NCBI RefSeq assembly: GCF_002210105.1
Contig: NZ_AQQU01000005.1
Location: forward strand, 62,001 to 126,000
Reading direction: 5' to 3'
DNA: 64,000 nucleotides
Origin: Oceanicola sp. 22II-s10i
GTDB taxonomy: Bacteria > Pseudomonadota > Alphaproteobacteria > Rhodobacterales > Rhodobacteraceae
Position 1 is the stretch's first letter, and each line of letters begins with the position of its first letter. A program made the translations under genes and the position numbers. This document shows, piece by piece, positions 52,545 through 54,520 of this stretch. The notes under the pieces were generated by a model, which saw only the letters and a list, made by a program, of their open reading frames with translations, was not told the DNA's origin and made no database searches.

Positions 52545-52621
52545 GACGGCAATACGCGCGAGGCCGGAAGGTGGTTCATCCTTTAACCGCATTACCCCGC
52601 GCAACGGCCCCTCCCCGCCCC

Positions 52622-52699
52622 GTCATCCTCGGGCCTGACCCGAGGACCTCCACACGAAGCGCCGCCCTCCGAGGTCCTCGGGTCAAGCCCGAGGATGAC
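52622..52699. repeat. REP-like inverted repeat (two 29-base arms)
   Basis: Arms 52622-52650 and 52671-52699 are 29 bases each and complementary except for one C/T position, separated by a 20-base loop. Each arm is itself a hairpin of type CCTCGGG-N5-CCCGAGG, and GTCATCCTCGGG starts one. Elements with GTCATCCTCGGGCTTGACCCGAGGA are, to my knowledge, abundant between genes in many alphaproteobacteria. Here it lies between the SDR and leuA promoters. Confidence 0.85.
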
Positions 52700-52752
52700 C
52701 GCTCCCCTGCCGCCGCCACACACCATGCTGCACGCGCAGCGAAATTGCCGGG

Positions 52753-52781
52753 TTTTCAACGCGGATGACGCGGCGTATAGA
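52753..52781 (+). promoter_or_regulatory. predicted leuA promoter
   Basis: TTTTCA (52753-52758) and TATAGA (52776-52781) are 17 bases apart. The likely transcription start, about seven bases on, falls at or next to the ATG of the leader peptide (52789), so the transcript could be leaderless. Confidence 0.55.
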
Positions 52782-52788
52782 AGGCCGC

Positions 52789-52878
52789 ATGATGACCATG
52801 GGCCCCATCACTTCCGCAGACGCACGCCGCTCCACCGGCGCGCTTTGCCTTGGCCTGATTCTCCTAATCCGCCTCTGA
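52789..52878 (+). CDS. leucine-rich leader peptide (leuA attenuation)
   Basis: This 29-residue reading frame starts with two ATGs and ends GALCLGLILLIRL followed by TGA. Six of the last eleven codons are Leu (CTT, CTT, CTG, CTC, CTA, CTC) and two are Ile, including a CTA, which should be rare in such GC-rich DNA. It ends 76 bases before leuA. Two competing hairpins begin at its stop. This is the classic layout of amino-acid attenuation leaders such as LeuL. AGAAGG lies upstream but may be outside the transcript if it is leaderless. Confidence 0.8.
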   Translation: MMTMGPITSADARRSTGALCLGLILLIRL

Positions 52879-52929
52879 GCGTGCCATCCGGCGCGACCGC
52901 TCAGAGGGCAAGCCGTTCCGCGCCATGGC
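52872..52929 (+). promoter_or_regulatory. leuA leader: two mutually exclusive hairpins
   Basis: Hairpin I: CCTCTGAGCG (52872-52881, covering the last Leu codon and stop) pairs perfectly with CGCTCAGAGG (52898-52907). Hairpin II: GCCAT-cc-GGCGCG (52883-52895) pairs with CGCGCC-ATGGC (52919-52929), an 11-bp stem with a 2-base bulge. The stems interlock, so only one can form. Hairpin II ends three bases before CAGGAG. There is no T-run, so control may act by translation or a Rho-type route. Confidence 0.65.
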
Positions 52930-52954
52930 TTCAGGAGAAAAGAGAGATTTACAG

Positions 52955-54520
52955 ATGAACACCACATCCAAACAGGACCGCGTCCTGATATTCGACACGA
53001 CCCTCCGCGACGGCGAACAGAGCCCCGGCGCGACCATGTCCCACGAGGAAAAGCTCGAGATCGCGGCGCTTCTGGACGAGATGGGCGTCGACATCATCGA
53101 GGCCGGGTTCCCGATCGCCTCCGAAGGCGACTTCCGCGCCGTGTCCGAGATCGCGAAGAACGCCAAGACCTCGGTGATCTGCGGGCTGTCCCGCGCGCAG
53201 CTGCCCGACATCGACCGGAACTGGGAGGCGATCAAGCACGCCAAGCGGCCCCGGATCCACACCTTCATCGGCACCTCGCCGCTGCACCGGGCGATCCCGA
53301 ACCTCGACATGGACCAGATGGCCGAGCGGATCCACCAGACCGTGAGCCATGCCCGCAACCTCTGCGAGGACGTGCAGTGGTCGCCGATGGACGCCACCCG
53401 GACCGAGCGTGACTACCTCTGCCGCGTGGTCGAGATCGCGATCAAGGCCGGCGCCTCGACCATCAACATCCCCGACACCGTGGGCTACACCGCCCCGCGT
53501 GAGAGCGCGGAGATCATCCGCGAACTGCTGGAGCGGGTGCCGGGCGCGGAAACGGTCGTGTTCTCGACCCACTGCCACAACGACCTCGGCATGGCGACGG
53601 CGAACAGCCTTGCCGCCGTCGAGGCCGGCGCGCGTCAGATCGAATGCACGATCAACGGCCTCGGCGAACGGGCGGGCAACACCGCGCTCGAGGAAGTCGT
53701 GATGGCGCTGAAGGTGCGCAACGACATCATGCCCTACTCCACTGGCATCGACACCACCAAGATCATGAACCTGTCGCGCCGCGTGGCGGCCGTGTCGGGC
53801 TTCTCGGTCCAGTTCAACAAGGCCGTCGTCGGCAAGAACGCCTTCCTCCACGAGAGCGGCATTCACCAGGACGGCGTGCTGAAGAACGTCGAGACCTTCG
53901 AGATCATGAAGCCCGAGGACATCGGCCTGAACGCCGACAACATCGTGCTGGGCAAGCATTCGGGCCGCGCCGCGCTGCGCTCCAAGCTCAAGGGGCTCGG
54001 GATCGAGCTCGGGGACAACCAGCTCAAGGACGTCTTCGTCCGGTTCAAGGACCTCGCCGACCGCAAGAAGGAGGTCTACGACGAGGACCTCATCGCGCTG
54101 GTGCAGGTGGCCGAGGACGCGGGTGCGGACCGGCTGTCGCTCAAGCGGCTCCGCGTGGTCTGCGGGACCGAGGGCCAGTCGGCCGAGATGACGATGGTCG
54201 TGGATGGCGAGGAGAAGTCCTGCGAATCCACCGGCGACGGTCCGGTCGACGCGGCCTTCAACTGCGTGAAGCAGCTGTTCCCGCATGCCGCCCGGCTCCA
54301 GCTCTACCAGGTCGCGGCCGTGACCGAGGGCACCGACGCGCAGGCGACGGTGTCGGTGCGGCTGGCCGAGGACGGACGGATCGTGACCGGGTCGTCGGCG
54401 GATACCGACACGGTGGTGGCCAGCGTGAAGGCCTACATCCACGCGCTGAACCGCCTGCTGGTGCGGCGCGGGAAGAGCGGGTCGGACCAGAAGGAAATCT
54501 CGTACAAGGACGTGTCCTGA
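52955..54520 (+). CDS. leuA: 2-isopropylmalate synthase
   Basis: This 521-residue enzyme condenses acetyl-CoA with 2-oxoisovalerate, the first step of leucine synthesis. The DRE-TIM motif FDTTLRDGEQSPGATM and the metal His pair in FSTHCHNDLGMAT are present, as are ECTINGLGERAGN and FLHESGIHQDG. The C-terminal regulatory LeuA dimer domain (about 390-521), with SVRLAEDGRIVTGSSADTD, binds leucine for feedback inhibition. Its expression is probably also controlled by the leader peptide upstream. A GAGAG-type ribosome site lies seven to eleven bases before the ATG, with CAGGAG further off. Confidence 0.98.
   Translation: MNTTSKQDRVLIFDTTLRDGEQSPGATMSHEEKLEIAALLDEMGVDIIEAGFPIASEGDFRAVSEIAKNAKTSVICGLSRAQLPDIDRNWEAIKHAKRPRIHTFIGTSPLHRAIPNLDMDQMAERIHQTVSHARNLCEDVQWSPMDATRTERDYLCRVVEIAIKAGASTINIPDTVGYTAPRESAEIIRELLERVPGAETVVFSTHCHNDLGMATANSLAAVEAGARQIECTINGLGERAGNTALEEVVMALKVRNDIMPYSTGIDTTKIMNLSRRVAAVSGFSVQFNKAVVGKNAFLHESGIHQDGVLKNVETFEIMKPEDIGLNADNIVLGKHSGRAALRSKLKGLGIELGDNQLKDVFVRFKDLADRKKEVYDEDLIALVQVAEDAGADRLSLKRLRVVCGTEGQSAEMTMVVDGEEKSCESTGDGPVDAAFNCVKQLFPHAARLQLYQVAAVTEGTDAQATVSVRLAEDGRIVTGSSADTDTVVASVKAYIHALNRLLVRRGKSGSDQKEISYKDVS

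Follow-up and report, generated by a model that had tools for sequence, protein, structure and literature searches.

A LEU-type leader in front of alphaproteobacterial leuA, a putative leucine-responsive translational attenuator

The leuA gene of Oceanicola sp. 22II-s10i is preceded by a short leader whose leucine codons can pair with the SD-like sequence just upstream of the gene, and we propose, with a probability of roughly 0.7, that this leader is a leucine-responsive translational attenuator of leuA with the layout of the LEU element. The LEU-type leader is known from actinobacteria; going by sequence comparison, it also stands before leuA in many alphaproteobacteria. We read the leader as a leucine switch because of its conservation, the pairing of its helices P0, P1, P2 and S2, covariation that is clear for P0 and modest for S2, and the apparent selection on its leucine codons. 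The window, i.e., the whole stretch of DNA analysed, comprises 64,000 nt, and its relevant features are listed here in window coordinates.

52753-52758, forward strand: candidate -35 box TTTTCA, 17 bp upstream of the -10 box
52776-52781, forward strand: candidate -10 box TATAGA, 7 nt upstream of the leader ATG
52789-52878, forward strand: leader ORF of 29 aa, probably leaderless
52843-52866, forward strand: stretch rich in Leu codons, whose conserved run comprises codons -7 to -4 counted from the stop
52859-52865, forward strand: 5' arm of P0, TTCTCCT, within the Leu codons, forming the base stem with 52933-52939
52872-52881, forward strand: 5' arm of P1 (hairpin I), spanning the leader stop codon at 52876-52878
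52881-52885, forward strand: 5' arm of P2, GTGCC, pairing with 52890-52894 as an alternative to S2 (98.2% of cells paired in 79 rows)
52890-52895, forward strand: 5' arm of S2, GGCGCG, shared with the 3' arm of P2
52898-52907, forward strand: 3' arm of P1, pairing with 52872-52881
52919-52924, forward strand: 3' arm of S2, CGCGCC; P1 and S2 together would form an H-type pseudoknot
52933-52939, forward strand: 3' arm of P0, AGGAGAA, the SD-like sequence upstream of leuA
52955-54520, forward strand: leuA, 2-isopropylmalate synthase (TIGR00973 / NF002087), start set by comparison with relatives

The leader frame, which an earlier note on this DNA had placed correctly, reads MMTMGPITSADARRSTGALCLGLILLIRL and ends in LCLGLILLIRL before the stop, with six Leu among the final 11 codons. 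The same note had guessed at a leaderless transcript, and the relatives bear this out as probable: the -10-like box sits 7 nt upstream of the ATG, suggesting a leaderless leader, and a box with at least four of the six TATAAT bases was found 6-8 nt upstream of an in-frame leader ATG in 69 of 83 loci (the best of several in-frame ATGs tried per locus), compared with 3.6% of random upstream positions. At least four of the six bases of TTTTCA, a motif picked after the sequences had been inspected and run without a background, were present at 16-18 bp in 64 of the 69 relatives having a -10 box. The strict TANNNT rule was satisfied in 45 of the 83 loci, with the window (TATAGA) outside these, and a generic sigma-70 scan detected nothing. 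Overall, the leader is likely translated from a leaderless transcript starting at or next to its ATG. Separately, we noticed that the sixth and seventh leader codons (+16 to +21, counted from the ATG) encode His-Ile in 46 of 82 Rhodobacterales leaders, from which the window differs; the constraint looks nucleotide-level because these codons are spelled CATATC in 41 of the 46. The pattern of -10 box, ATG and CATATC, scanned in 20 genomes, matched six of them and was not found in the genome of the window.

Several familiar explanations were discarded early. There are no terminator-like sites in 52600-53000, in line with the lack of a T-run that had been remarked on before, and classical terminator attenuation was rejected on this ground. 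A known riboswitch or leader family was rejected because the Rfam scan of the window yielded no family at gathering score; at E values up to 10, the region 52550-53100 attracted only miRNA and snoRNA models, all of them upstream of the leader. Frameshifting from the leader into leuA was rejected because many relatives have stops in the upstream leuA frame (judged by eye). The ATG at 52955 is the leuA start conserved among relatives. The sequence CAGGAG, taken as the SD in the earlier note, stands 17 nt upstream of this ATG, and a second purine stretch at 52942-52947 is nearer.

The comparison drew on leuA loci of the genus, present in 21 of 22 genomes at E<=1e-150 (own genome included), and on those of named genomes (80 loci kept out of at least 595). 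Of these, 93 loci were anchored in leuA, leaving 91 after removal of L088 and L092, which are without the core; in the 91, the leader stop lies 102-516 nt upstream of the conserved DTTLRDGEQ codons of leuA. The central element is the base stem P0, which we tested by comparing the best ungapped helix of each leader with its own downstream region against exchanged regions. In 88 loci (the 91 minus L027, L039 and L098), own arms scored -13.07 and permuted arms -11.10 (sd 0.22), and none of 20,000 permutations was as low. The test was repeated on 39 loci, nearly all from outside Rhodobacterales, with the same outcome (-12.57 versus -10.71, sd 0.36; 0 of 20,000 permutations); from the 48 loci available, six had been omitted here (the near-duplicates L100, L104, L106, L158 and L160, and L153, where P1 was mis-called), as had L090, L161 and L197, which were without an anchor. 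A gapped duplex scan, which the ungapped test replaced, was noisy but agreed with it (-16.4 for own arms, -14.6 for permuted ones, sd 0.27). Matching changes in both arms can be followed by eye, with the pairs TCCTTAGCC/GGCTAAGGA in L051, TCCTAAGCC/GGCTTAGGA in L050, TTCTTACGCT/AGCGTAAGAA in L041 and L044, CTACTAAGC/GCTTAGTAG in L033 and TCCTAGCCC/GGCCTAGGA in L087.

Forty-two leaders, preselected for the P0 helix and cut at its end, were aligned on sequence only and gave a consistent picture. Six of the nine P0 pairs were changed on both sides and 67.5% of the P0 cells were paired, while the whole structure was 84.7% paired, compared with 80.2% after shuffling (reached by 0 of 500 shuffles) and at most 47.4% when slid. 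Double-change cells numbered 43 versus 20.2 in shuffled alignments (0/500), and the covariation score was likewise reached by none of the 500 shuffles; pairs with double changes numbered 8 versus 6.0, a value that 31 of the 500 shuffles reach. Judged by permutation and alignment, the covariation of the P0 arms is clear. In 66 of the 83 loci, a P0 helix with an energy of -9 kcal/mol or lower was present within 75 nt, whereas none was found in 14 and it was too distant in 3; the 83-locus counts (P0 helix, promoter, Leu and CTA) additionally omit L099 and L013, L022, L024 and L026 from the 88. In L060, L080, L087 and L091 we observed by eye an insert between S2 and the P0 3' arm, partly hairpin-capable, with the P0 arm retained, as if P0 closed a multi-branch loop.

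Inside the base stem lie the hairpins. The MFE fold of the window leader consists of P1, the inner hairpin P2 (52881-52885/52890-52894) and P0, and among 200 shuffles of the whole leader 5 folded equally well (z -2.29); the stretch of hairpin II, our S2, taken alone gave z -0.34, with 67 of 200 equally good. Both hairpins of the earlier note are present: hairpin I exactly as drawn, its nine pairs 98.6% paired across 79 aligned relatives, and hairpin II as GGCGCG 52890-52895 with CGCGCC 52919-52924, a core kept in relatives, followed past a 2-nt bulge by GCCAT/ATGGC. The 79-row alignment omits L098 and L099, L027 and L039 as duplicates, and eight loci that a long gap separates from leuA (L034, L049, L063, L068, L077, L082, L093 and L097). 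In it, P2 is nearly without double changes, and the five core pairs of S2 are formed in every row having both letters (79 rows, 75 at one pair), with T-A in place of C-G at one pair in 6 of 75 rows. The sixth S2 pair is formed at 65%, and the six-pair S2 is 94% paired versus at most 70% when slid. Growth of S2 past its core amounted to 1.01 pairs with the own partner versus 0.64 with others (sd 0.10) in 84 loci (L027, L039, L098, L013, L022, L024 and L026 omitted), where the best of 20,000 permutations equalled the own value and the arm was chosen in a few rows by a loose motif; the effect comes from the first added pair only (45% versus 31%), the next three showing none. These counts suggest modest covariation of S2 in Rhodobacterales. 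P2 and S2 vie for 52890-52895, whereas P1 and S2 are compatible and, as read from their positions, could form an H-type pseudoknot inside the base stem. Outside Rhodobacterales the scan gave no support for S2, with 7,708 of 20,000 permutations equally good (39 loci).

We built a covariance model, R1, from 42 leaders picked from the 66 P0-helix loci for clean length and register, and ran it on 96 loci plus the window, omitting the near-duplicates L024, L026, L027 and L039, the paralogues L002-L006 and the truncated L096. With L098, L100, L101 and L103-L106 set aside, 87 of the 89 Rhodobacterales-type loci matched upstream of leuA at E<1e-5; among the 89, L088 matched weakly (0.027) and L092 did not match. 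Of the loci held out from training, which are nevertheless related to the training set, 45 of 47 matched. We make no claim for L108-L110, three further loci of the own genome that R1 matched at E 0.19-0.5. A cupin-like gene of ~118 aa (cupin by eye) stands between the element and leuA in L034, L063, L077, L111 and L113 (partial in L113), and L049 and L068 may carry decayed remnants of it; when 26 residues of the protein were scanned against Pfam, nothing was found.

Run on 289 genomes of the class under stricter filters, R1 gave matches at E<=0.01 in 28, of which 4 belong to the own family and 24 do not; in 16 of these 24 the match stood in front of leuA and in 8 elsewhere. A second model, R2, was built from 98 chosen loci that R1 had matched and was applied in a less biased survey, in which 38 of 96 alphaproteobacterial genomes had the window's LeuA class at E<=1e-140, 36 of them outside the own family. 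R2 matched just upstream of leuA, on the coding strand, in 24 of these 36 genomes (22 at E<=0.01), made up of 21 of 28 (weakest E 0.028) and 3 of 8 (one at E 0.014). Eight of the 24 matched genomes had fed R2; held out, 16 of 28 matched. The remaining R2 matches at E<=0.03 in the 36-genome survey were three antisense ones overlapping the element itself. Leaders outside Rhodobacterales typically read CTNCTNCTTA or CTTCGACTTA, followed by GCCCCTGAG. In many of them (e.g., L117, L118 and L129) we noticed a strikingly fixed CTTCGACTTA, with the Arg codon CGA between two Leu codons. Across the phylum, R2 matched 35 of 299 genomes at E<=0.01, three of them outside the class; LeuA lies downstream in 23 of the 25 new loci from this search, and the sole non-class locus among them has none within 1.9 kb. 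These searches gave no support for the element in the phylum's other classes.

The element appears in front of more than one class of LeuA. In L161, an alphaproteobacterial locus matched by R2, LeuA shares 52.5% identity with the Sinorhizobium enzyme and 24.9% with the window's. The LeuA of the Sinorhizobium locus L172 scores above the TIGR00970 cut-off; its leader was not matched by R2, ends in LLLLGLIRGCRVR before the stop, and in the MFE fold its Leu run pairs with the SD sequence GACGAAGAGAAG, whose end is 6 nt upstream of the leuA ATG. Among the matches listed in a search of the open literature, judged by title and start of abstract and with subscription papers outside its scope, we found no description of such a leader for alphaproteobacterial leuA.

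The leucine codons appear to be retained beyond what the base stem needs. Counted back from the stop, codons -7, -6, -5 and -4 encode Leu in 63, 76, 78 and 83 of the 83 loci (codon -6 of the window is Ile), and codon -1 in 69. Among the 66 loci for which P0 is defined, codon -7 never falls within the stem, being excluded by the limits set on P0 itself, and is Leu in 52; codon -6 lies outside P0 in 44 of the 66 and is Leu in 42 of the 44. These unpaired codons use all four CTN codons. Furthermore, CTA, which makes up 0.7% of the 2,833 Leu codons in leuA, is the spelling of 10 of the 63 leucines encoded at leader codon -7, of 16 of the 76 at codon -6, and of 12 of the 42 at codon -6 where that codon is outside P0. 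Since Leu is kept synonymously outside P0 and the rare CTA is enriched, selection seems to act on Leu decoding in the leader itself. Pairing alone would not predict such retention and enrichment, and the Leu run as a mere anti-SD by-product was rejected for the same reasons. Conservation of the leucine codons and of both stems in relatives, which the earlier note had set as one check of its idea, came out in favour of it. Its claim that leucine codons in a leader control leuA is supported, whereas the switch between hairpins I and II as it drew them is not, and the main stem P0 had been missed.

This organization resembles the LEU element described in passages of Seliverstov et al. (2005, PMC1262725) for actinobacterial leuA, namely a run of Leu codons in a leader ORF that pairs with the leuA SD as a base stem, together with a pseudoknot and an alternative hairpin. 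As far as those passages go, the window shares the Leu-run leader, the base stem of Leu run and SD-like sequence, the probable pseudoknot and the alternative hairpin on that stem; it differs in belonging to another phylum and in its LeuA, which is of TIGR00973 and not of TIGR00970. Among five actinobacterial regions upstream of leuA (L167-L171), L167-L170 each have a Leu leader, an 11-16 bp P1 and a possible S2 helix of 5-8 bp, and by eye L171 has no such leader. The best Leu-run helix reaches the region upstream of leuA in L167, L168 and L170, and another helix is best in L169, in a comparison made without a shuffled control. Alphaproteobacterial leaders have their stop codon within the 5' arm of P1, the four actinobacterial ones have it within the P1 loop, and the P1 sequence differs. 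R2, trained on alphaproteobacteria only, matched L168, L169 and L167 weakly at the leader (approximate E 0.0025, 0.015 and 0.044), and did not match L170, L171 or L140, the others of the six actinobacterial loci scanned. The features tested, all read from sequence, place the element of the window with the LEU type, as an alphaproteobacterial form of it. Among other actinobacterial leaders, leuL of Streptomyces lividans (MRFGLLLLSCRGEGL) is reported to be leaderless and to lack a typical terminator (PMC8079986), and Corynebacterium glutamicum to have a presumed four-Leu leader upstream of leuA (PMC4046766).

In the proposed mechanism, transcription would start at or next to the leader ATG, and by default the Leu codons would pair with the SD-like arm, closing P0 over P1 and either P2 or S2 and keeping leuA initiation low. 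Upon a lack of Leu-tRNA, a ribosome would wait on the Leu codons and cover the P0 5' arm, the leuA initiation region would be freed and LeuA synthesis would presumably rise. With ample leucine, the ribosome would get to the UGA inside P1 and depart, allowing P0 to re-form; Rho-dependent polarity on untranslated leuA may contribute. We folded the leaders of 65 loci, preselected for P0 (L032 lost from the 66), with ribosome positions from codon -9 to just past the stop and with pseudoknots ignored, and obtained a mean unpaired fraction of the P0 3' arm of 0.18 without a ribosome versus 0.45-0.53 with one on the leader. For the window, the values were 0.10 without a ribosome, 0.42-0.75 up to the stop and 0.23 just past it. 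P0 opens to a similar extent whether the ribosome is at the stop or at the Leu codons, so that the model rests on dwell time; the predicted folds support opening of P0 by an occupying ribosome, without singling out the Leu codons.

One unlikely alternative is that the element is the binding site of a regulatory protein and the Leu run only its anti-SD strand. Such a partner was proposed for the LEU element, whose mechanism was called unclear, in a passage of PMC1262725 citing an effect of Leu-codon mutations in Streptomyces coelicolor leuA inconsistent with classical attenuation; elsewhere the same paper has these mutations without influence on regulation. The P1/P2 sequence is almost invariant in Rhodobacterales, beyond pairing needs, as a protein site might demand. 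The synonymous retention of Leu outside P0 and the CTA enrichment speak against a protein site, and nothing points to a given protein.

The spacing between P0 and leuA bears on a further, similarly improbable reading, in which leader folding sets Rho access or polymerase pausing instead of leuA initiation. From the end of the P0 arm to the leuA ATG there are 15 nt in the window and a median of 18 nt in 60 relatives, which is long for an SD. For the median, 6 of the 66 loci were skipped and, among several in-frame ATGs, the one nearest to 14 nt was taken, a choice biased toward short gaps. Control at the level of transcription could accommodate this distance, and Rho needs no U-run. However, in L034, L063 and L077 the P0 arm is the SD of the intervening cupin-like gene, 7 nt from its start, so that the pairing appears aimed at the SD of the first gene; the Sinorhizobium arm mentioned above is similarly close to its ATG, and by eye many P0 arms of other alphaproteobacteria stand at normal SD spacing. 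The 15-18 nt spacing also counts against the translational attenuator, as do the accounts of the Streptomyces coelicolor Leu-codon mutants, the 17 of 83 loci without a P0 helix within the limits and the many other alphaproteobacteria that read CTN-CGA-CTT with few Leu codons.

The switch of the earlier note, in which hairpins I and II would exclude each other and hairpin II would close the SD, is very improbable: both hairpins are real and the window's genus has a GCC/GGC extension of hairpin II near the SD-like arm (by eye), but the two share no bases, both pairings are kept in the same RNAs, and hairpin II can sit far from the leuA start in relatives (e.g., L060).

The translational attenuator we favour can be placed beside better-known systems. 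The classical leu and trp attenuators of enterobacteria are ribosome-mediated, with stalling logic and a leader peptide in which the amino acid under control is abundant; the window has the Leu-rich leader and would share this logic, but is without a T-run terminator-like site and without an Rfam match. In translational attenuators of the ermC type, the RBS is closed by default and opened by a ribosome stalled on the leader ORF. The closed-RBS logic would be common to both, whereas in the window the signal would be a lack of Leu-tRNA and not an antibiotic, with the regulatory codons doubling as the anti-SD strand. The trpL leader of Sinorhizobium, which is leaderless and acts in tryptophan-dependent transcription attenuation, is alphaproteobacterial and of the leaderless type, as the window's leader probably is, but has a terminator.

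More tentatively, and with doubt outweighing confidence, we consider that one ancient leucine-leader RNA is common to Alphaproteobacteria and Actinobacteria and was retained while the gene behind it was exchanged, its Leu codons serving as both tRNA sensor and anti-SD strand and the pseudoknot, a few bases further downstream, possibly holding the ribosome there. An exchange of genes is suggested because the element precedes leuA genes of either class, TIGR00973 in the window and TIGR00970-type in L172 (and in L161, going by similarity), as well as the cupin-leuA pair. The LEU-type layout in many alphaproteobacterial families, together with selection on unpaired Leu codons and CTA, favours sensing by the ribosome and brings tractable laboratory hosts into play for testing it. 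A leader of this kind would give the leucine pathway in much of the class a further regulatory RNA, one that no Rfam family matched here.

Upstream of the leader, we observed a long imperfect palindrome at 52618-52704, a REP-like repeat. It has 20 matches, on both strands, in 11 places of the own genome including 52618-52704 itself, and attracts the miRNA family hits below gathering score.
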